A DNA stretch of 64,000 nucleotides. Source: a virus. The position numbers and the translations under genes were made by a program. Shown here in pieces: positions 25,539 to 64,000 of this stretch. The stretch is from IMG/VR virus record IMGVR_UViG_3300033153_002115, positions 34,469 to 98,468 of that record, one strand, 5' to 3'. The first letter of the stretch is position 1, and every line of letters begins with the position of its first letter. Below the pieces are notes generated by a model, which was not told the DNA's origin, did not search any database, and was given only the letters and a program-made list of their open reading frames with translations.

Positions 25539-25540
25539 GA

Positions 25541-25625
25541 AGAGAGGATGGGATTCGAACCCACGGAGCTTTTACACCCTCTGATTTAGCAAACCAGTGC
25601 AATAGACCAACTCTGCCACCTCTCT
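25541..25625 (-). tRNA. tRNA-Ser(GCU)
   Basis: Cloverleaf on the minus strand with a 7-bp acceptor stem (AGAGAGG/CCTCTCT), anticodon loop TTGCTAA (anticodon GCT) and a long variable arm typical of serine. No encoded CCA. Last tRNA of the array, 2 bases from the end of the convergent 1582-residue gene. Confidence 0.88.
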
Positions 25626-25630
25626 TTATG

Positions 25631-25701
25631 AGATGCCGGTCAGGATCGAACTGACGAACGGAGCTTTGCAGGCAACTACCTTACCACTCGGTTACAGCAT
25701 C
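25631..25701 (-). tRNA. tRNA-Cys(GCA)
   Basis: Anticodon loop CTGCAAA gives GCA. Acceptor GATGCTG/CGGCATC and discriminator U fit cysteine. The anticodon stem has two internal mismatches (T-T, T-C), so folding is weaker than in its neighbours. Confidence 0.75.
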
Positions 25702-25704
25702 ATG

Positions 25705-25776
25705 CACAGGGAGTAGGATTCGAACCTACAAACTACGCTTTTGGAGAACGCTTGCCACACCTATAACTGCCCCTGT
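25705..25776 (-). tRNA. tRNA-Trp(CCA)
   Basis: Loop CTCCAAA gives anticodon CCA. Acceptor ACAGGGG/TCCCTGT with discriminator G fits tryptophan. It is the normal CCA form, not the UCA form that would read UGA. Confidence 0.87.
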
Positions 25777-25780
25777 ATTG

Positions 25781-25861
25781 TGCCTCACGAAGAATCGAAC
25801 TTCCTAGTCATTAGACACCAGATTTACAGTCTGGTCCTGATCCCACTCAGCAGACTCGGCA
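25781..25861 (-). tRNA. tRNA-Tyr(GUA)
   Basis: Loop CTGTAAA gives anticodon GTA, with a long variable arm as in bacterial tyrosine tRNAs. The acceptor stem has tandem G-A mismatches at pairs 5 and 6, which makes the exact ends uncertain by one base. Confidence 0.78.
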
Positions 25862-25865
25862 TTAG

Positions 25866-25951
25866 AGGAAAGTGTGGGATTCCAACCCACAAGACTTTGA
25901 CATCCTACTGGTTTTCAAGACCAGGCCCTCGTGCACCACGGACACTTTCCT
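25866..25951 (-). tRNA. tRNA-Ser(UGA)
   Basis: Loop CTTGAAA gives anticodon TGA for TCN codons; long variable arm. The T loop reads TTGGAAT instead of TTCGAAT, an unusual change at position 56 that normally pairs with the D loop. Confidence 0.82.
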
Positions 25952-25955
25952 TATG

Positions 25956-26028
25956 TGGAATCAGATAGACTCGAACTACCGTCTCAAGATCTTCAATCTC
26001 GTGCTATTGCCTCCTCAGCTATGATTCC
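25956..26028 (-). tRNA. tRNA-Phe(GAA)
   Basis: Loop TTGAAGA gives anticodon GAA on a good 5-bp stem. Acceptor GGAATCA/TGATTCC and discriminator A fit phenylalanine. Confidence 0.87.
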
Positions 26029-26033
26029 ATTAG

Positions 26034-26108
26034 TGCGGAAAGAGAGACTCGAACTCTCAGAACTCTGGAGCCTAAATCCAGCGACTTTACCTATTTGCCC
26101 ACTCCCGC
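26034..26108 (-). tRNA. tRNA-Leu(UAG)
   Basis: Loop TTTAGGC gives anticodon TAG for CTN codons on stem CTGGA/TCCAG. Acceptor GCGGGAG pairs with TTTCCGC, discriminator A. The variable arm is short for a leucine tRNA, so charging identity is slightly uncertain. Confidence 0.82.
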
Positions 26109-26114
26109 ATTTTG

Positions 26115-26201
26115 TGCACCTGGTGAGAGTCGAACTCACAAGACCATCACTGATCACTGGGGCTTAAACCCAGCGCGTTTCTCCAGTTTCGCCACAGACG
26201 C
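26115..26201 (-). tRNA. tRNA-Leu(UAA)
   Basis: Loop TTTAAGC gives anticodon TAA for TTA and TTG codons; stem CTGGG/CCCAG and a long variable arm typical of leucine; discriminator A. Confidence 0.88.
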
Positions 26202-26344
26202 ATATAAACCAGAAAGACCCTACTCGTTAAAGTAAGGTCTTAGTACTATATTGTATTATTTATATAGCTATCCTAATCCCTTACCGAAGTAAGCAGCGAC
26301 CAGAAACTAAATAAATAACATGTTGTTTTCATAAAATGTTATAT
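26202..26344. other. Non-coding spacer inside the tRNA array with two hairpins
   Basis: No gene. A 10-bp stem with one mismatch (AAGACCCTAC 26214-26223 against GTAAGGTCTT 26232-26241) lies just before tRNA-Leu(UAA) on the minus strand. A second hairpin, CTTAC-CGAA-GTAAG, lies at 26280-26293. The first resembles the AAGACC/GGTCTT stem at the other end of the array and may be a terminator or a processing site. A 19-codon minus-strand frame in the spacer is too short to support. Confidence 0.5.
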
Positions 26345-26369
26345 TAAAACCGGTTAAATTAATAACCGG
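26345..26369 (-). terminator. Rho-independent terminator in the tRNA array
   Basis: Minus strand: CCGGTT, 8-base loop, AACCGG, then TTTTAAT. It ends the candidate small RNA and precedes the leucine tRNAs. Confidence 0.6.
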
Positions 26370-26437
26370 CCTTTACAATTTAAAGTGTCAATCAGGTTTT
26401 GCACCCCTGTTTTACATGACAAACTCGTTGTTTTTGC
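26345..26437 (-). ncRNA. Candidate small RNA between two tRNA groups
   Basis: A minus-strand TATATTTG promoter box at 26443-26450 is followed about 90 bases later by a Rho-independent terminator (stem CCGGTT 26350-26355 / AACCGG 26364-26369, then TTTTAAT). Between them a nested stem is visible: TGTCA 26386-26390 with TGACA 26417-26421, and CAGG with CCTG inside. No tRNA or convincing ORF fits. I infer a short structured transcript of unknown role, perhaps a regulator of the tRNA array. Confidence 0.4.
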
Positions 26438-26442
26438 GGTAA

Positions 26443-26450
26443 CAAATATA
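26443..26450 (-). promoter_or_regulatory. TATATTTG promoter box (minus strand)
   Basis: The + strand CAAATATA is TATATTTG on the minus strand, matching TAnnTTTG. It sits between tRNA-Gln and the candidate small RNA, oriented to transcribe the small RNA and then the second tRNA group. Confidence 0.5.
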
Positions 26451-26480
26451 CACCTTATATATTATACAACCAAATAAAAG

Positions 26481-26553
26481 TTACCCCGGCTGGATTCGAA
26501 CCAGAATTACAAGGCTCAAAACCTTGTGTGCTTGCCGTTTACACTACAGGGCA
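26481..26553 (-). tRNA. tRNA-Gln(UUG)
   Basis: Loop TTTTGAG gives anticodon TTG on stem CAAGG/CCTTG. Acceptor TGCCCTG/CGGGGTA contains G-T pairs; discriminator A. Confidence 0.86.
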
Positions 26554-26558
26554 ATATG

Positions 26559-26631
26559 AGAAGGTGAAAGGAATCGAACCTTCAACCTCCGAATTCGTAG
26601 TCCGGGGCTCATCCATTTGAGCTACACCTCC
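26559..26631 (-). tRNA. tRNA-Arg(ACG)
   Basis: Loop CTACGAA gives anticodon ACG for CGN codons, needing A34-to-inosine editing by the host enzyme for full range. Acceptor GGAGGTG/CACCTTC. Confidence 0.86.
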
Positions 26632-26636
26632 ATTAG

Positions 26637-26709
26637 TGATGCCTCTGGGTTTCGAACCCAGGCTCTTCGCATTAAAAGTGCGAGGCTTTACCAACTAAGC
26701 TAAGACACC
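26637..26709 (-). tRNA. tRNA-Lys(UUU)
   Basis: Loop CTTTTAA gives anticodon TTT on stem TCGCA/TGCGA. Acceptor GGTGTCT/AGGCATC, discriminator A, canonical T arm. Confidence 0.88.
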
Positions 26710-26826
26710 TGATAAATAGAATATCTATACTCCTTTATCGGTGCGGCCAGTTCTCCGTACATCTCTACGACCTCCAAGCCTCTTGAATTAACACTATACA
26801 TAACATTTAATTTTAATTAATACTAG

Positions 26827-26901
26827 TACTGCCAACGAGGCTCGAACTCGCATCTTCCAGGATGAAAACCTGACGTCCTACTCCATTTAGACTACAGCAG
26901 C
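26827..26901 (-). tRNA. tRNA-Glu(UUC)
   Basis: Loop TTTTCAT gives anticodon TTC on stem TCAGG/CCTGG. Acceptor GCTGCTG/TGGCAGT, discriminator A. A 117-base spacer without a recognisable gene separates it from tRNA-Lys; that spacer holds a weak GATAAA/TTTATC stem. Confidence 0.86.
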
Positions 26902-26912
26902 ATATAATTTAG

Positions 26913-26984
26913 AACCCCTACCGAGAGTCGAACTCAGGACTTGGGTTTAGAAGACCCACGCTTTTCCAGTTAAGCTATAAGGGT
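26913..26984 (-). tRNA. tRNA-Arg(UCU)
   Basis: Loop CTTCTAA gives anticodon TCT for AGA/AGG, on stem TGGGT/ACCCA. Acceptor ACCCTTA/TAGGGGT. AGA is a frequent arginine codon in the phage genes. Confidence 0.86.
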
Positions 26985-26989
26985 ACCTG

Positions 26990-27063
26990 TAGGGATGGCA
27001 GGAATTGAACCGACGCTCTCCCGGATATCAGCCGGGCACTTTAACCAACTAAGCTACACCCCC
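26990..27063 (-). tRNA. tRNA-Ile(GAU)
   Basis: Loop CTGATAT gives anticodon GAT on stem CCCGG/CCGGG. Acceptor GGGGGTG/CATCCCT, discriminator A. It reads ATT and ATC but not ATA. Confidence 0.87.
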
Positions 27064-27068
27064 ATATG

Positions 27069-27144
27069 TTGACCTGGGCGGATTCGAACCGACGACTTCT
27101 TCCTTGTAAGGGAAGCACTCTGAACCAGACTGAGTTACAGATCA
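27069..27144 (-). tRNA. tRNA-Val(UAC)
   Basis: Loop CTTACAA gives anticodon TAC on stem CTTCC/GGAAG. Acceptor TGATCTG/CAGGTCA, discriminator A. Confidence 0.87.
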
Positions 27145-27149
27145 ATTTG

Positions 27150-27224
27150 CGGACTGGTAAAGATTCGAACTTTACATACTTTCTGATATTCATCAGATTT
27201 TCTTTCCCGTTAATTTACAGCCCA
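27150..27224 (-). tRNA. Atypical tRNA-like gene, anticodon unresolved
   Basis: The T arm (TAAAG-TTCGAAT-CTTTA) and an acceptor (GGGCTG/CAGTCC) are clear. The anticodon arm folds as TCTGA/TCAGA with a 6-base loop, TGAATA, instead of 7 bases, and the D stem is very weak. If T33 is the first T then GAA (Phe) would be the anticodon, but the loop lacks position 32. It may be a decaying tRNA or one with a special function. Confidence 0.55.
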
Positions 27225-27230
27225 ATATAG

Positions 27231-27306
27231 CGGTCCCGGAGGGTATCGAACCCTCGTTTTTCTAGCGTGACAGGCTAGATCCCCGGCCATTGGGGCTCAC
27301 GAAACC
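27231..27306 (-). tRNA. tRNA-Asp(GUC)
   Basis: Loop CTGTCAC gives anticodon GTC on stem CTAGC/GCTAG. Acceptor GGTTTCG/CGGGACC with discriminator G fits aspartate. Confidence 0.88.
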
Positions 27307-27310
27307 ATTG

Positions 27311-27384
27311 TGGGCAATGCTGGATTTGAACCAACGACCTTCTCCTTATGAGGGAGCTGCTCTACCTGACTAAGCTAAAAGCCC
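27311..27384 (-). tRNA. tRNA-Met(CAU) or tRNA-Ile2(CAU)
   Basis: Loop CTCATAA gives anticodon CAT. Acceptor GGGCTTT/ATTGCCC is paired at position 1-72, so it is not a classical initiator, with two T-T mismatches inside. It could be elongator Met or, if C34 becomes lysidine, an AUA-reading isoleucine tRNA. Confidence 0.82.
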
Positions 27385-27389
27385 AAAAG

Positions 27390-27464
27390 TTGCGGGAGTG
27401 AGAATCGAACTCACGTTAATCTTGCTTATGAGACAAGGCTGGAACCCCTCCAGACCACCCCGCA
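27390..27464 (-). tRNA. tRNA with CAU anticodon (second copy; Met, fMet or Ile2)
   Basis: Loop CTCATAA on stem CTTGT/GCAAG gives anticodon CAT. Acceptor TGCGGGG/TCCCGCA is fully paired with discriminator A. The D arm is unusually long and GC-rich (CTGGA...TCCAG). Its sequence differs strongly from the neighbouring CAU tRNA, so they probably have different identities. Confidence 0.82.
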
Positions 27465-27533
27465 ATATAAGATCAGGTGTCGCACCTAAAGACTTACTTA
27501 AATCCAGCTCGGAACTGCAATCTATTTATCTTA

Positions 27534-27566
27534 GCGATACAAGGGAATCGAACCCTTCACCTAATG
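27534..27566 (-). pseudogene. 3' half of a tRNA (remnant)
   Basis: A T arm (AAGGG-TTCGATT-CCCTT) and a 3' acceptor strand (GTATCGC) directly follow the end of tRNA-Thr on the minus strand. No matching 5' acceptor, D arm or anticodon arm exists upstream, because tRNA-Thr occupies that place. I read it as a truncated tRNA left by deletion or recombination. The 70 bases that follow it (27465-27533) hold only a small AGGTG-CGA-CACCT hairpin. Confidence 0.6.
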
Positions 27567-27639
27567 AGCCTCCGACAGGAATCGAACCTGTTATCCTCTG
27601 ATTACAAATCAGTAGCTTCGCCAGCAAAGCTTAAGAGGC
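27567..27639 (-). tRNA. tRNA-Thr(UGU)
   Basis: Loop TTTGTAA gives anticodon TGT. Acceptor GCCTCTT/CGGAGGC with a mismatch at pair 7; position 8 is A rather than the usual T. Canonical T arm. Confidence 0.83.
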
Positions 27640-27688
27640 ATAATTGGTCGGTGTTTTTATACAGGTACCAACCAAGAGCCTGTCTTCG

Positions 27689-27762
27689 AGCGAGTAGACG
27701 GGATCAAACCGACTCTAATCCTGGTTGGAAGCCAGGTGCACCATCATTTATGCGTTACTCGC
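27689..27762 (-). tRNA. tRNA-Gly(UCC)
   Basis: Loop CTTCCAA gives anticodon TCC on stem CCTGG/CCAGG. Acceptor GCGAGTA/TACTCGC, discriminator U fits glycine. T loop TTTGATC departs from TTC. Confidence 0.86.
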
Positions 27763-27767
27763 TTATG

Positions 27768-27839
27768 CGGAATGAGATGGATTCGAACCAACGTACATCT
27801 GCTTAACAGGCAGGCGCTAAGCCGCTTAGCTATCATTCC
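27768..27839 (-). tRNA. tRNA-Asn(GUU)
   Basis: Loop CTGTTAA gives anticodon GTT on stem CCTGC/GCAGA. Acceptor GGAATGA/TCATTCC with discriminator G fits asparagine. Confidence 0.88.
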
Positions 27840-27843
27840 TTAG

Positions 27844-27915
27844 TGGAGCCGAAGTGAATCGAACACTCGTAACTCTGCTTGCAAGGCAAAGCTTCTAACC
27901 AACAAGACCAACCCC
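27844..27915 (-). tRNA. tRNA-Ala(UGC)
   Basis: Loop CTTGCAA gives anticodon TGC. Acceptor GGGGTTG/CGGCTCC, discriminator A. The usual G3-U70 alanine identity pair is present (G3 against T70). Confidence 0.86.
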
Positions 27916-27920
27916 ATTGG

Positions 27921-27993
27921 GTGTATGATGAGACTCGAACTCACTTCAACTGGAACCACAATCCAGCCCCTCGGCCACTTCGGGATCATACAC
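27921..27993 (-). tRNA. tRNA-His(GUG)
   Basis: Loop TTGTGGT gives anticodon GTG on stem CTGGA/TCCAG. An extra G at the 5' end pairs with C73, the diagnostic G-1:C73 of histidine tRNAs. Confidence 0.9.
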
Positions 27994-27995
27994 AG

Positions 27996-28069
27996 TAGGG
28001 TGAGTCAGATTCGAACTGACGGACCGGTGATTCCAAATCACCGTAGTATAGCCTCTGCAATACCACCCT
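27996..28069 (-). tRNA. tRNA-Pro(UGG)
   Basis: Loop TTTGGAA gives anticodon TGG on stem GGTGA/TCACC. Acceptor AGGGTGG/TCACCCT, discriminator A. First tRNA of the array in the direction of transcription. Confidence 0.88.
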
Positions 28070-58652: not shown

Positions 58653-58889
58653 TTATTTTATATGTTTAGCGAACCATTCTCTTACCATTAACTTAGCTTC
58701 TGCATCATTATAAGGTTGATCAGAAATAGACAGCATGTAGTGATCTTCTATAGCTTCTTGACATAACCTAACCATAGCCATTAAAGCTTCAGTTATTTCT
58801 TCCGCTATTACCATAGGTTGTTCACTGTCTGCTACTCTAGTTGCCCAGTATAAAGGAACAAATACTTCTTTTTGTATCTCTATACTCAT
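58653..58889 (-). CDS. Small helical protein of unknown function
   Basis: 78 residues: VFVPLYWATRVADSEQPM, ITEALMAMVRLCQEAIED and a C-terminal KLMVREWFAKHIK helix. Its ATG overlaps the TGA of the small membrane protein by one base, so they are translationally coupled. Confidence 0.55.
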   Translation of the reverse strand: MSIEIQKEVFVPLYWATRVADSEQPMVIAEEITEALMAMVRLCQEAIEDHYMLSISDQPYNDAEAKLMVREWFAKHIK

Positions 58890-59056
58890 CAGTCTCTCTT
58901 TAAATGTAAAATAACAATCATATAAGCAAGTGCAGCTCCTGCAATCATAGTTGCTGCAAAATCCTCTATCGGATCGTTCTCTAAATTATAGACACGATAA
59001 GCCGTTGTCAACATAAATATTAACATAGCTATTCCTAACTTTACTAGTGTTTTCAT
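58889..59056 (-). CDS. Small two-span membrane protein (holin-like candidate)
   Basis: 55 residues. Two hydrophobic segments are visible: VKLGIAMLIFMLTTAYRVY (about 5-23) and AATMIAGAALAYMIVILHL (about 34-52), separated by an acidic turn (NLENDPIEDF) and ending LKRD. Size and topology are those of small phage holins or other membrane modulators. The ATG follows a TAACTAAAACAAAT leader, and the stop overlaps the next start (TGATG). A holin role is inferred; its position far from the M23 enzyme argues for caution. Confidence 0.6.
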   Translation of the reverse strand: MKTLVKLGIAMLIFMLTTAYRVYNLENDPIEDFAATMIAGAALAYMIVILHLKRD

Positions 59057-59092
59057 ATATTTATTTGTTTTAGTTACAATTTAAAATAAAGG

Positions 59093-59173
59093 CTTGATAC
59101 ATTGAGGTTTCGCTGCTCGATCCTGAGAAGGATTTTTAACGCTTAGCCGCATGCGAGTTCATATCAATACAAG
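59093..59173. ncRNA. Structured non-coding element between small early genes
   Basis: CTTG (59093-59096) and ATTGA (59101-59105) can pair with CAAG (59170-59173) and TCAAT (59164-59168), closing over an inner ATCCT-GAGA-AGGAT hairpin (59120-59133) and a CGCATGCG palindrome. No ORF. It may be an RNA element; the strand is unclear. Confidence 0.3.
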
Positions 59174-59208
59174 GACGTCTCAGTTACTATCCCTTACCTT
59201 TACTATTT

Positions 59209-59412
59209 TTACTCTTCTTCGTCTCCAAAATGCTCCGTCCATTCTTCTGGTGTTATACCGGACATAATGAATTCTCTATCTTCTCCACTAAGATTAGGCA
59301 TTGCTCTTTGAATAGCAACGCCTTCTTCCCATGAGCGTAATTGCTCTGGAGTAACTGGTATCTCTCTTGTATGAGTGATATGAGTTATGTTTGACATTTT
59401 TGTTATTAACAT
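59209..59412 (-). CDS. Small conserved Bacteroidota-phage protein (IQRAMPNLSGEDREFIMSGITPEEW type)
   Basis: 67 residues. The second half follows a short motif frequent in Bacteroidota and their phages: IQRAMPNL, EDREFIMSGITPEEW. Its function is unknown to me. The ATG at 59412 sits at the same distance from a TTTTAAATTGTAATC leader as the start of the 55-residue gene at 59056, which has an almost identical leader, so I kept it rather than the second Met. Confidence 0.6.
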   Translation of the reverse strand: MLITKMSNITHITHTREIPVTPEQLRSWEEGVAIQRAMPNLSGEDREFIMSGITPEEWTEHFGDEEE

Positions 59413-59440
59413 TATATAGTTGTTTTGATTACAATTTAAA

Positions 59441-59516
59441 ACCTCACTGTCCCCGGCTAACGGGTATGTTCCAACCTTGCTAACTTTTTATACGTTGGAC
59501 TCATGTACAGTGAGGT
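59441..59516. ncRNA. Three-way-junction RNA-like element
   Basis: A perfect 10-bp closing stem (ACCTCACTGT 59441-59450 / ACAGTGAGGT 59507-59516) encloses two hairpins: CCCG-GCTAA-CGGG (59452-59464) and CCAAC/GTTGG (59471-59475 / 59494-59498). The layout resembles small regulatory RNAs or riboswitch-like elements, but I match it to no known class. It lies just upstream (on the minus strand) of the 67-residue gene's leader. Confidence 0.45.
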
Positions 59517-59731
59517 AAGACATTAGATTACTCCTTCCCTTTCGTACGTGTTTTCTTCTACAAAAGTAAAAGAATGTTACGAAAACCCTACAGAGTATAT
59601 TAAGGTACTTAACCTCCCTTTCATGCCTCTAATGTCAATAAAGCACCCTAGTCGAATATTTATCTGCCAGTTGTCAGTATTTCTACGTGATGGCATCTAA
59701 GGCAAGCTTCATATAATTTAATTAATACTAA
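59517..59731. other. Non-coding spacer with several hairpins
   Basis: No convincing gene. Pairings include TTTCGTA/TACGAAA (about 59540-59587), TTAAG-GTA-CTTAA (about 59602) and GCCA/TGGC (about 59668-59694). Together with the elements on either side it forms a hairpin-rich run between small genes. Confidence 0.4.
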
Positions 59732-59914
59732 TTATAACCATAACAAACCTGCCTTCATAACATCAGACAGTTTATTTGGTAAAAATACAGAATCTTTACG
59801 TATTATCGAAGGCATTTCCACACCTGCAGCATTAGCTCTGCCTAACTGCTGTCTTGTCCTGAAATTGGTCGAACTGACCTTTTCAGACTTAATCATTTTA
59901 ATTCTATTTCTCAT
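59732..59914 (-). CDS. Small basic protein of unknown function
   Basis: 60 residues, Arg/Lys-rich N-terminal half (MRNRIKMIKSEK, RTRQQLGRANA) and hydrophobic end. The ATG follows a GTAACTAAAACATAG leader, which is the main support for a real gene. No family recognised. Confidence 0.5.
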   Translation of the reverse strand: MRNRIKMIKSEKVSSTNFRTRQQLGRANAAGVEMPSIIRKDSVFLPNKLSDVMKAGLLWL

Positions 59915-59997
59915 TGTACTATGTTTTAGTTACCTGCTTTCGCAACGCTTTGGACTTAAAACTCTATTTATACTCATCCAAATGAGTCGATTAAAAA

Positions 59998-60017
59998 CCC
60001 TGCCCCGTAGGGCAAGG
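59998..60017 (-). terminator. Rho-independent terminator with UACG tetraloop
   Basis: Minus strand: CCTTGCCC-TACG-GGGCAGGG (8 bp, one G-T pair) followed by TTTTT. It closes the transcript of the small genes at 60036-61362. A weaker hairpin (ACTCAT-CCAA-ATGAGT) follows about 15 bases later. Confidence 0.75.
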
Positions 60018-60035
60018 CTAACCAAAACAAACACT

Positions 60036-60347
60036 TTAATATAAACTATTTAATAGTTGTTCAATACCATCTGCATCTTTTACAGCAATCAGGTGATTGA
60101 ACTTCTTTTGAATGTATTCTTTATCTTCTCTACCCACATTAGGTAGAGCTATTAAACTTTGTTGACTGAACTTTCTCTTCAGCCAATCAGGTGCAGTATC
60201 CCAATCACCACCGGCAAATCCTTTAAAGTTTGATTTAGGCTCTTGTTTAATATAACCTTGTTTGTTCTTAAGATAGAAATGAGTTTCATCAAATCTATAC
60301 ATACTGAACATACCTGGCCTATCTTTTAAATGTATTTTAATGTCCAT
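60036..60347 (-). CDS. Small early protein of unknown function
   Basis: 103 residues: MDIKIHLKDRPGMFSMYRF, then HFYLKNKQGYIKQEPKSNF and two C-terminal helices. It overlaps the preceding gene by 11 bases; a TTAACTAAACC leader lies before the ATG. Confidence 0.55.
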   Translation of the reverse strand: MDIKIHLKDRPGMFSMYRFDETHFYLKNKQGYIKQEPKSNFKGFAGGDWDTAPDWLKRKFSQQSLIALPNVGREDKEYIQKKFNHLIAVKDADGIEQLLNSLY

Positions 60348-60735
60348 CAGGTTTAGTTAATTTTTTAACTTTTAAAGAACCAAAGATTTGTTCAGTAAGA
60401 GTAACTTTTGCCATCAATTCTACTCCCTTTTTATACTCTGAATAAACTCTTTCTAGGTTTTTAAACTCTTCTTTAGCCTCTTTTTTAGTAGCAGCAAATA
60501 TGACATCTTCATACACTAAATAACCTGATACTTTTCTTATCTCTGTAAATAGAAACCTAGGCGTATTATATCTATACATTCTACTTATAATTTGTGTTAC
60601 TCTAGTAGCACTTAAGTTATATTTAACCTTTAGTTTTACTTTAGATATACCTGCTTTGTAATCTTTATACATAGCTTCATTTCTTTTTATGATAGCTAGA
60701 CCTTTTTCCGTTTTATAGTATTCTTCACTTGTCAT
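60337..60735 (-). CDS. Small early protein with helix-turn-helix-like segment
   Basis: 132 residues, Lys-rich. KDYKAGISKVKLKVKYNLSATRVTQIISRMYRY has the look of a helix-turn-helix (cited in part: LKVKYNLSATRVTQIISR). A DNA-binding or regulatory role is possible. A TAACTAAAGCAAAT leader precedes the ATG. Confidence 0.5.
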   Translation of the reverse strand: MTSEEYYKTEKGLAIIKRNEAMYKDYKAGISKVKLKVKYNLSATRVTQIISRMYRYNTPRFLFTEIRKVSGYLVYEDVIFAATKKEAKEEFKNLERVYSEYKKGVELMAKVTLTEQIFGSLKVKKLTKPDGH

Positions 60736-60750
60736 GATTATTTGCTTTAG

Positions 60751-60975
60751 TTATAAACTATGTTCTTCTAATACTGTCTTCTTACCGCAGTGTTTTATTT
60801 GGTAATTGTATCTGTTCTTAACACTATGTAAATGCTTTTTACATAAACATTTCACAGTAATTACGTCTCTATTTAAATGAGAAGCAAACGTAGTTATAGT
60901 TAGTTCATCAGTCGCATCGTTAGTACAACTATACTTATTACCAAACTGGTCTTGTATCTTAGCTTTACATTTCAT
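60751..60975 (-). CDS. Small Cys-rich protein
   Basis: 74 residues with MKCKAK, YSCTND, VKCLCKKH and HCGKK, likely one zinc site. A TTAACTAAATAAC leader precedes the ATG. Function unknown. Confidence 0.5.
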   Translation of the reverse strand: MKCKAKIQDQFGNKYSCTNDATDELTITTFASHLNRDVITVKCLCKKHLHSVKNRYNYQIKHCGKKTVLEEHSL

Positions 60976-60987
60976 TGTGCTTGTTAT

Positions 60988-61362
60988 TTAGTTAAATTCT
61001 ATTCCATGAGTTACCAGAAATGCATGTAACTCTTCAGATAAACTTTCCATATCATCTGTCCATTTCTCAAAGGGGACATCTGAAATACCTAAGTAAGCTA
61101 CAAAGTAATAGCCTTTGCTTTTATAATGCACTTGGTTATGTTTATCGAAACCTTTAAATGGCTTACAATACACAACCTTTATATTATTGTGACCAAAGTT
61201 GTCAGTTATACTAACAAACTGTTCAATAATATCCTTTGTAATTCTATCCCACTTGTTATCTGTATTAAACAGTCTATCATTAATACTGTTCCCGTCTAAA
61301 AACAGGGACATAGTATTCTCATTATAATCAGGGATATGTTTAAGAGACTTAAATTTCTTCAT
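60988..61362 (-). CDS. Early protein of unknown function
   Basis: 124 residues from ATG 61362 (leader TTAACTATAACTTAC); the frame is open upstream only through a weak TTG. KKFKSLKHIPDYNENTMSL, KVVYCKPFKGFDKHNQVHY and a C-terminal helix are visible. No family recognised. Confidence 0.55.
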   Translation of the reverse strand: MKKFKSLKHIPDYNENTMSLFLDGNSINDRLFNTDNKWDRITKDIIEQFVSITDNFGHNNIKVVYCKPFKGFDKHNQVHYKSKGYYFVAYLGISDVPFEKWTDDMESLSEELHAFLVTHGIEFN

Positions 61363-61389
61363 GTGCTTGTAAGTTATAGTTAAATTATG

Positions 61390-61397
61390 TATATTTG
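61390..61397 (+). promoter_or_regulatory. TATATTTG box pointing into the non-coding region (+ strand)
   Basis: TATATTTG on the + strand, the same octamer as the minus-strand boxes. It points away from the small early genes into 61.4-62.2 kb, where no normal gene lies. Confidence 0.35.
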
Positions 61398-61416
61398 CAT
61401 ATAATTCCGCATACAA

Positions 61417-61604
61417 TTAGGGGGAAATGGGTCAAAGTTTAAAATCATCCCTATCCCCTATAAATAGAGCCAACCATCACAACATCCTCATACTTACTAA
61501 TAAAGAGTTAATAAATAATCCATAACGGATAGTGTAAATATGGAAAATAAAGTATAACTTTGTCCATACGCAGTAACGAATGTACTCATGCGTCCTCGAT
61601 CAGT
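61417..61604. other. Non-coding region upstream of the GC-richer island
   Basis: AT-rich, no ORF. It contains the + strand box at 61555. Nothing else recognised. Confidence 0.5.
61555..61562 (+). promoter_or_regulatory. TAACTTTG box (+ strand)
   Basis: The same octamer as before the late genes at 18060 and 63248. Here it faces the GC-richer non-coding island, suggesting a non-coding or antisense + strand transcript. Confidence 0.4.
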
Positions 61605-61606
61605 AA

Positions 61607-62002
61607 CCAGTCTCACTCAACAAGAAAAGACTTAACAAGACATACACCCGTCTTCTCAAGGACTTGAAACTCACCCTTCTAGACGACATAACCTAAAAGC
61701 GGTTCGTCTTCGAAAAAGAAGGAAATCAAGGGTTTAAACGGTTTGCAGTGCAAAACTTTCCACTCAACCGTGTCGTCCTCAACAAGTTAGACACAGTCGC
61801 ACTGTTCACACTGTCCAGCCTAACCAACACGGTGCTGGTCGAACTGGTCGACAAGAGAAAGACTGGTCCTTCACGAATTGCCGTCGTCCGGCGCCCCACC
61901 TCTGCCCTGTTCTCAAATCGTATTTATACGCCTTATATATTATACACTCAATTCTGCGCTAAGGTCACGGAACTTGAAATTGCGCTAAGGCTATGGACTT
62001 GA
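61607..62002 (+). pseudogene. GC3-rich reading-frame remnant, possibly a decayed foreign gene
   Basis: In one + strand frame the third codon positions are mostly C or G, unlike any other gene in the window. The frame is interrupted by TAA at 61694-61696. It is open from there to the TGA at 62000-62002, with an ATG at 61748 (84 residues, NRVVLNKLDTVALFTLSS, VLVELVDKRKTGPS). No family is recognised. It may be a fragment acquired from a GC-richer genome, or a chance frame in a structured RNA or origin region. Confidence 0.35.
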
Positions 62003-62027
62003 AACCACGTTCGCGCTAAGGCTGTGG
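61918..62027. repeat. Three iteron-like repeats next to an AT-rich stretch (origin candidate)
   Basis: GCGCTAAGGTCACGG (61956-61970), GCGCTAAGGCTATGG (61982-61996) and GCGCTAAGGCTGTGG (62013-62027) share GCGCTAAGGYYRYGG, spaced 26 and 31 bases. Directly to the left, 61918-61952 is almost pure A/T and includes TTATACACT, one mismatch from the DnaA box TTATNCACA. Iterons beside an unwinding-prone AT stretch are typical of replication origins. The function is inferred. Confidence 0.45.
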
Positions 62028-62149
62028 CCCAAATAGCTCCCCTGAAGGGCTTGCTCTTCCGTCGTCTGTTCGAGTTCTTCCGTATGGTGCTAGTGCGTTA
62101 GCTCCTGGCCGATAGGACAGGTAGGATAAGCCGTCCGCAGGACATCTAG

Positions 62150-62198
62150 AAAAAAAGAAAGCACCGCAAGGTCTTGCGACGATGCGGTTTTGCTTTCT
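62150..62198 (-). terminator. Strong Rho-independent terminator after the 62218-62682 gene
   Basis: Minus strand: AGAAAGCA pairs with TGCTTTCT (62191-62198 / 62156-62163) around an inner CCGCA/TGCGG stem, followed by a run of seven T. An alternative inner hairpin CGCAAG/CTTGCG (62165-62178) competes. It isolates the 154-residue gene from everything downstream. Confidence 0.8.
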
Positions 62199-62217
62199 AC
62201 TTGATGAACGGTGAAAC

Positions 62218-62682
62218 TCATACCATTTTGGCCGCTTCCTTCTCGTCAATCTTTGCAGGCTTGTCCGTAGACTTTAGCTTGCTTATGCCACTTTGTGCGA
62301 ACACTACCGATTGCGTAGTAACTGGGTCACTCATTAGACGACAGTTAATTACGTTTTGAACTTGTGCAGATACTGCATCGTTGTCCAATACGATTGTCCA
62401 CTTCTCGAAGTCAATGCTGTCTTCTTTAGGTGTGAACTTACGCTTATTATAAGTTGCTTCCACACCTGCCTCATGAAGGGTAGCACCCTCATAAAGAAAT
62501 TTGCTACCAACAAGTAAATCAGCGTCAGCAAGATATAGATCCTGCTTTAACATTTTCTTTACTTTGTTTAATATGAAGCTAGACGGTGCGCCATATACAG
62601 GTATTGATTCGTCTGTGAAAGACAGGATGATACGTGCGAAATCCTTTGTGAAACTAGCCCTTGCAATTGTCAATTCTTCCAT
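62218..62682 (-). CDS. First minus-strand early protein, unknown function, probably highly expressed
   Basis: 154 residues: MEELTIARASFTKDFARIIL, then VKKMLKQDLYLADADLLVG, YNKRKFTPKEDS and an acidic/Lys end. No family recognised. Its codons are clearly less AT-rich than those of the other minus-strand genes. It is the first gene left of the divergent control region and has its own strong terminator. This suggests a separate, strongly expressed early gene, perhaps for host takeover. That is inference from placement. Confidence 0.65.
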   Translation of the reverse strand: MEELTIARASFTKDFARIILSFTDESIPVYGAPSSFILNKVKKMLKQDLYLADADLLVGSKFLYEGATLHEAGVEATYNKRKFTPKEDSIDFEKWTIVLDNDAVSAQVQNVINCRLMSDPVTTQSVVFAQSGISKLKSTDKPAKIDEKEAAKMV

Positions 62683-63180
62683 GATATTGTCATTTATTGA
62701 AATGTGCCTACTCTACGTCGGGTTTTCGGCTTCGCCCGTAATGTCTTGTAATCAGTAAAATGATGGTAGTCACTTCTACGAGTTTTATCTGCACTGTGTT
62801 AGTGTTTTACATCAGATAAGAGACAGCGCCATCGCTTGTTAATATAATACTAAGCAGAGTTACTGTGAAACGTAGGTGGATAGTAACCACGGTGTTTCTA
62901 GTCTCATCCCTATCTTGTAGGTCGACAGCAGTCCAGTTAGCATTATATTAACAAGGCACACATGGTGATTGGTGCGAATCTCTACCGTGGTATGTCGTGC
63001 TTAGCACTGTAATTGCTCCATATGACCGGTACGGTTGGTTAGACCGATCATATGCCGTCAAGCTCATGGCTTGATGTCCAAAATCAGATCCTATCCTGCA
63101 AAGCAGGGGGTACACCGGATCCTTCAACACCCAACGGGGTCAATCGTAGGGATAGAATCACTCCCTTAACATACACAAAA
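62683..63180. ncRNA. Hairpin-dense non-coding control region between early and late blocks
   Basis: About 500 bases without a gene. Perfect stems: TTATCTG/CAGATAA (62785-62819), a 14-bp inverted repeat (62835-62848 / 62942-62955) with GAAAC/GTTTC and GTGG/CCAC inside, CATATGA+CGGT / ACCG+TCATATG (63019-63054), TCAAGC/GCTTGA (63058-63074), GATCC+CCTGC / GCAGG+GGATC (63087-63121). GC content is higher than in neighbouring genes. It could be one or two structured RNAs, an origin, or both. Confidence 0.5.
62835..62955. repeat. 14-bp perfect inverted repeat enclosing 93 bases
   Basis: CTTGTTAATATAAT (62835-62848) is the exact reverse complement of 62942-62955. Inside is a nested stem GAAAC/GTTTC (62867-62871 / 62894-62898) with GTGG/CCAC. 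It may be an RNA closing stem or a DNA cruciform site. Confidence 0.75.
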
Positions 63181-63212
63181 AATATATAATTTTTTTTTCT
63201 AACCTTTTTCAC

Positions 63213-63220
63213 TAACTTTG
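63213..63220 (+). promoter_or_regulatory. TAACTTTG promoter box before the late gene at 63248
   Basis: TAACTTTG, extended to TAACTTTGTAT as at 18036, lies 27 bases before the ATG. It follows a T-rich stretch and is the best candidate for a late + strand promoter. Confidence 0.55.
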
Positions 63221-63247
63221 TATCATCCACATATACACACCCACACT

Positions 63248-64000
63248 ATGAACCCAATAGGTAAGATTAAACCCGGCGGCTTAACTGGTAAAGAGATTAT
63301 TGAAGTTACAGGTAAAAAAGGAATAAAGTATCTTGCAGAAGTACAAGATGTAGCTGATACTGGAGGAAAAGGGAACGCTACAGTTTCTAAAGGTAGTGTA
63401 TTTACTCCCGCAATAACTTTTGATGTAGATGAAAAGTATTTTAGTAGATACATGCAAGCAGGGGCTTTAACAATTAGTTTAGGTTCTAATACAAATGGGC
63501 AGGGTTCTATAGTTTATTGTCCAATAATAACAGACGGCAGTGCAATTAATTTTCCTGCAAATTGGAAAGAGATTAAAAATGAGTACGTAAATGATATTGC
63601 TGTTTATGGAATTTCGGTATTTTTTGACGGAACAGTATATCAATATTGGATATACTATGTCGGTGTTTATGACGTAAATAGTCCTACCCTTGATTCGGTT
63701 AATATAACGGATGGGACAATTAATGAAGTAAATTTAGGCTTTTCCGAGGCTGTGGTTATTACTACAGATGGATGGTCAATATCGACAGATGGAGCAGCCC
63801 TGAGCATATTAAGTGTTACAGGTTCAGGAACTTCTATCCCTAGATTTGTTTTGAGTCGAGAGGTATTATATTCGGAAATTTTATCATTAGCCTATAATAG
63901 CACAATAGGAGAAACAAAGGATTTAAATGATAACGACTTAGCAACAATAGTAAGTCAACCTATTGATAATGATATTACAGGGATAGAGGAGATTACAGTA
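63248..64000 (+). CDS. Late protein with Ig-like (SwmB-type) domain, cut by right edge
   Basis: ATG at 63248; 251 codons are open to the end of the window, so the gene continues outside. Residues 1-150 are beta-rich (FTPAITFDVDEKYF, AVYGISVFFDGTVYQYWIYY). From about residue 150, SPTLDSVNITDGTINEVNL, GFSEAV and LSLAYNSTIGETKDLNDNDLATI (cited in part) follow the SwmB/bacterial Ig-like repeat found in adhesins and phage decoration proteins. I infer a virion surface or fibre protein that starts the late block. Confidence 0.65.
   Translation, partial: MNPIGKIKPGGLTGKEIIEVTGKKGIKYLAEVQDVADTGGKGNATVSKGSVFTPAITFDVDEKYFSRYMQAGALTISLGSNTNGQGSIVYCPIITDGSAINFPANWKEIKNEYVNDIAVYGISVFFDGTVYQYWIYYVGVYDVNSPTLDSVNITDGTINEVNLGFSEAVVITTDGWSISTDGAALSILSVTGSGTSIPRFVLSREVLYSEILSLAYNSTIGETKDLNDNDLATIVSQPIDNDITGIEEITV

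Follow-up and report, generated by a model that had tools for sequence, protein, structure and literature searches.

The DNA analysed here (the window, 64,000 nucleotides in length) comprises bases 34469-98468 of a virus record of 98,468 bases. The two ends of the record have 114 identical bases in common, an overlap that gives a circular map of about 98.35 kb. The genome carries genes for terminase, portal, family A DNA polymerase, helicases, and ligase, and its major capsid protein is of the Crassvirus type (PF23898, 438.8 bits), which places the phage in Crassvirales. The stretch at 62683-63180 is situated between a minus-strand block of replication genes and a plus-strand block of virion genes, which are labelled early and late, respectively, by analogy with other crAss-like phages. 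A cluster of 22 tRNA genes (25539-28069, minus strand), covering most amino acids, is located at the cumulative GC-skew maximum. The features in and around the stretch, in window coordinates, are as follows.

62149-62197, minus strand: intrinsic terminator 3' of the 154-aa gene, with the stem GAAAGCA...UGCUUUC followed by a U run, recognized from the sequence and by a terminator scan
62218-62682, minus strand: early gene encoding 154 aa, with its ATG 22 nt past the end of the DUF805b model
62705-62739, minus strand: DUF805b RNA (RF02914, clan CL00115), a short H-type pseudoknot with the stem CGGG/CCCG, a loop GCC that pairs with a downstream GGC, and then a AGAGUAGGCA tail
62835-62955, minus strand: domain of 121 nt whose ends pair as a 19-nt inverted repeat, with arms at 62835-62853 and 62937-62955
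62956-63180, minus strand: rest of the putative leader, with hairpins at 63019-63054 and 63087-63121 that are at chance level
63213-63220, plus strand: TAACTTTG, a candidate late-block promoter box by position
63248-64000, plus strand: first late-block gene, starting with the ATG at 63248 and still open where the contig ends; beyond it, the genome runs on through the 114-bp terminal repeat

The longest open frame in the stretch does not exceed that of shuffled sequence under the standard code, with TAG read as Q, or with TGA read as W, so hidden coding under recoded stops is ruled out. The GC content is 43.8%, compared with 34.8% for the window. The first-pass annotation had described a gene-free, GC-richer stretch between the early and late blocks, and this description holds. 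Upstream of the late block, TAACTTTG matches TAnnTTTG, the consensus of the Bacteroidota -7 box; motifs of this type occur in the window at chance level (88 counted, 82 expected), and the box is a candidate by its position. No clear early promoter was found upstream on the minus strand.

Between 62600 and 63300, DUF805b was the only Rfam family matched, both at the gathering score and at E-values up to 5; the stem at 62705-62739 thus belongs to a known family (cmscan, 38.2 bits against a gathering score of 35.6, E = 3e-7), and the rest of the stretch has no family match. All pairs of the model are kept in the window copy, including the stem CGGG/CCCG around the GGAAgCCGAAAA loop. The third pair of the pseudoknot nCC/GGn' is G-C in this copy; the pseudoknot is a reading from covariation and is absent from the Rfam consensus line as displayed. 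AGAGUAGG ends 24 nt upstream of the ATG at 62682, and the model ends 22 nt upstream of it. In score, in the stem and pseudoknot pairs, in the GAAAA and AGAGUAGG blocks, and in the position 20-24 nt before an ATG, the window copy is a typical member of the family, but it ends a long structured stretch heading a phage early block, whereas many of the phage copies examined appear to lie between closely spaced genes. Riboswitches of the preQ1-I type, which are about 35 nt long and form an H-type pseudoknot just before the start codon, are comparable in size and architecture. However, their conserved bases differ from those of the DUF805b copy, which is not a member of that type and offers no evidence of a ligand.

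A relaxed DUF805b pattern gave at least 120 matches in IMG/VR, 82 of which were examined. The pattern fixed CCGAAAA and AGAGTAGG and left the covarying positions free; hence, these two blocks are not independent evidence. In 63 of the 82 matches, an ATG opening a frame of at least 40 codons is located 14-40 nt after AGAGTAGG, most often at 20-24 nt (40/63 copies), and that of the window is at 24 nt. Despite base changes, 60-61 of the 63 copies preserve each of the first three stem pairs (shuffling would give 26.6-43.7). The third pair of the pseudoknot, formed by the base before CC and the base after GG, is Watson-Crick in 58 copies and G-T in four more (37.8 expected). All counts are of sequences rather than of independent events. 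The covariation of this third pair supports the pseudoknot. No promoter box was found at a fixed distance upstream of the motif among the phage copies examined, which points naturally to a motif that acts as RNA, close to the start of translation. The Bacteroidota, which are the hosts of these phages, largely lack Shine-Dalgarno sites.

The 154-aa protein has no Pfam or PHROG match. Searches with peptide patterns in IMG/VR, by tblastn in INPHARED, and among the relatives gave no homologues beyond the weak ones in the relatives G002 and G004, and a single-sequence AlphaFold prediction was unsuccessful (pLDDT 34). Because the terminator-like hairpin follows this gene, the leader and the gene could together be transcribed as a single short unit.

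The arms of the 121-nt domain are paired at 18 of 19 positions (95%) and constitute the strongest inverted repeat in the 64 kb. With a match scored +1 and a mismatch -2, the repeat scores 16 and the next best place in the window 13; among 200 dinucleotide-shuffled versions of the region, a single one reaches 14 and the remaining 199 do not exceed 11. The first-pass annotation had noted an inverted repeat of 14 bp; the longest one measures 19 nt. The domain folds with z = -6.0 on the minus strand and -3.5 on the plus strand (-4.8 with flanks), all folding energies here being compared with those of dinucleotide shuffles. Homologues of the stretch were not found by blastn in INPHARED, in 19 relatives, or in a comparison with the nearest relative, and an exact 21-mer from it has no other occurrence in IMG/VR. 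A covariance model of the domain, run over 813 kb of related phages and further records, finds only the domain itself, its plus-strand match in the window being the domain's own palindrome. A MITE-like origin was rejected, as the repeat is single-copy and shows no flanking duplication by eye.

The folding of the stretch favours the minus, early strand. As a whole, the stretch gives z = -0.9 on the plus strand, with 20 of 100 shuffles folding as well, and z = -2.5 on the minus strand, with 1 of 100 (z = -2.4 when the stretch is delimited slightly differently). With the gene-proximal end left out (62750-63180), the values are -4.0 for the minus strand and -1.6 for the plus strand. This bias is mostly due to the 121-nt domain. 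The segment 63010-63165, which holds the helices at 63019-63054 and 63087-63121, folds at z = -1.05 (32 of 200 shuffles as good), and the two helices, which had been taken for genuine RNA stems, are thus not beyond chance. The dense, nested hairpins reported earlier do exist, but only those at 62705-62739 and 62835-62955 stand out, and the others are at chance level. Likewise, the large structured phage RNA that had been envisaged is supported as a DUF805b pseudoknot before a start codon together with a strand-biased 121-nt domain, rather than as a single RNA of ~500 nt, since the folding of roughly one third of the stretch is at chance level. Large ornate RNAs such as GOLLD, ROOL, and OLE are likewise large and structured, and some are found in phages; however, neither these nor HEARO gave a match at the gathering score in the window or at E-values up to 5 in 62600-63300.

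In a scan of the whole window, the best piece of the stretch ranks 17th of 320 minus-strand windows, so the stretch is not the most structured place even within the window. A region of the early block at 59400-60040 folds at z = -5.7 and contains a Pistol ribozyme (59928-59987, minus strand, 42 bits). A second gene-free, GC-rich stretch at 61420-62150 has three spaced GCGCTAAGG repeats near 61957-62022 and folds no better than shuffles.

A search with the capsid protein gave 51 related contigs, none closer than 73%, and no match in GTDB genomes. In the relative with the 73% identical capsid protein (G002), the same divergent place contains a non-coding stretch (z = -4.3 on the early strand), then a DUF805b copy that scores just under the cut-off (35.1 bits), and then a gene of 161 aa with weak similarity to the 154-aa gene (BLASTP E = 0.003). 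In G004 (69% capsid identity), a gene weakly similar to the 154-aa gene is also present (E = 0.014), no DUF805b match was found, and the upstream stretch is repeat-rich and shows no early-strand folding (z = -0.55). The non-coding stretches of both relatives contain repeat arrays, namely direct repeats in G004 (L111:3628-4298) and TTATTCTcccAGAATAA palindromes in G002 (L076:1540-1830), which are possible iterons.

We lean towards reading the stretch as the control region heading the early block, namely a structured early leader that ends in a DUF805b translation-control knot and possibly overlaps the replication origin. Minus-strand transcription across the whole stretch would produce the leader, with the 121-nt inverted-repeat domain coming first, then the DUF805b pseudoknot, whose end is 22 nt upstream of the AUG, and then the 154-aa gene and the terminator. 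The pseudoknot would control or assist translation initiation in an mRNA that has no Shine-Dalgarno site, and the large hairpin would be an RNA part of the leader that may act in stability, processing, or regulation. This reading is supported by the DUF805b match above the cut-off, the covariation in the phage copies, the absence of a fixed promoter box, the minus-strand folding bias, and the same order of elements in G002. Against it stand the lack of a homologue of the domain, the lack of a clear early promoter, G004 with neither DUF805b nor early-strand folding, and the weak similarity of the proteins.

By position, packaging or origin roles for the stretch are possible. It could be mainly a replication origin, in which the large inverted repeat works at the DNA level, bound by an initiator or extruded as a cruciform, and the DUF805b part alone is RNA, a reading that we regard as rather unlikely. 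The stretch sits at the switch between the divergent blocks and has the best inverted repeat in the 64 kb, and the cumulative GC-skew minimum is located at window position 63255. However, this minimum is confounded with gene strand, which the skew tracks, and in G004 the skew switches with the genes, 3 kb from the corresponding stretch. In G002, the skew minimum (22340) lies about 90 bp past the non-coding stretch, within the first early gene, and that stretch has repeated TTATTCTcccAGAATAA palindromes recognized by eye. In the zeta crAss-like phage Lera, the origin predicted by Ori-Finder heads the forward block (PMC12386605); the stretch is likewise at the head of a gene block, but the window shows no origin feature beyond position and skew. 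Furthermore, there are no iterons and no convincing direct repeats in 62400-63500, and the better folding of the 121-nt domain as minus- than as plus-strand RNA argues against the origin reading.

The 121-nt domain might instead be part of a separate non-coding RNA, not of the leader, and one of several that head crAss-like early blocks. In all seven crAss-like genomes having the relevant region, non-coding sequence makes up 20-47% of the first 12 kb of the early block and 2-8% of the rest, as estimated from crude gene calls. Compared with coding controls, the non-coding pieces are better folded (p = 1e-7); they also fold better as early-strand RNA than as the opposite strand, a small but consistent difference (paired p = 6e-4, 103 pieces); both p-values are generous because pieces within one genome are not independent. 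The most extreme piece is a 741-nt non-coding stretch of G002 (L076:2740-3480), which reaches z = -7 to -11.5 when folded as early-strand RNA, has a terminator-like hairpin at its end, and has no match in Rfam, GOLLD, ROOL, and OLE included; it is a strong candidate for a large, previously undescribed phage RNA. In the window, however, the terminator scan found no terminator between the 121-nt domain and DUF805b, and the domain matches no Rfam family. We consider a separate RNA at this locus improbable.

Other candidate RNAs were noted. In the corresponding zone of the cultured phage crAss001, unannotated tRNA-like sequences with insertions of about 53-70 nt (L242:46202-46596, crAss001 96202-96596) are located beside and just downstream of a gene for a TROVE-domain (Ro-like) protein, and similar unannotated sequences are present at G018:68081-68226. 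The interrupted sequences in crAss001 suggest Y-type RNAs or tRNA introns. No tRNA-like RNA, with or without an insertion, is present in 58800-63300, and a TROVE/Ro protein able to bind Y-type RNA is absent from this phage and 12 relatives. In addition, the minus strand of the window carries at 59440-59530 an RNA of ~75 nt that recurs in a distant crAss-like phage (L008:2755-2825), with the common sequence TTAGCAAG...AACATACC.GTTAGCC. Its closing stem is CCTCACTGT/ACAGTGAGG in one and ATCTACTAT/ATAGTAGAT in the other, and its hairpin CCCG/CGGG versus CCTG/CAGG, which are compensatory changes; it has no Rfam match, and the pattern search gave no other IMG/VR contig.

It is very improbable that the hairpins other than DUF805b are chance pairing in a GC-richer spacer, since the score of the 19-nt inverted repeat is reached by none of the 200 shuffles and nowhere else in the window, even though the plus-strand folding, the segment 63010-63165, and the rank of 17 among 320 windows would fit such pairing.

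With DUF805b, the locus adds one more copy to an RNA motif already catalogued, but the phage relatives of this copy make a clean case, by covariation, for a pseudoknot placed at a fixed distance from the start codon. The covariation together with this fixed distance suggests, on the basis of sequence, that DUF805b has a translation-control role in phages. The RNA-rich early zone is a more interesting object than the stretch itself. No mention of non-coding RNA in this zone was found in the crAss literature searched, which is weak evidence of novelty. We tentatively suggest, as possible rather than probable, that the Crassvirales share an RNA-rich zone heading the early block, with several large structured early-strand RNAs outside the Rfam families, and that the 121-nt domain may be one of these and would be expressed early.
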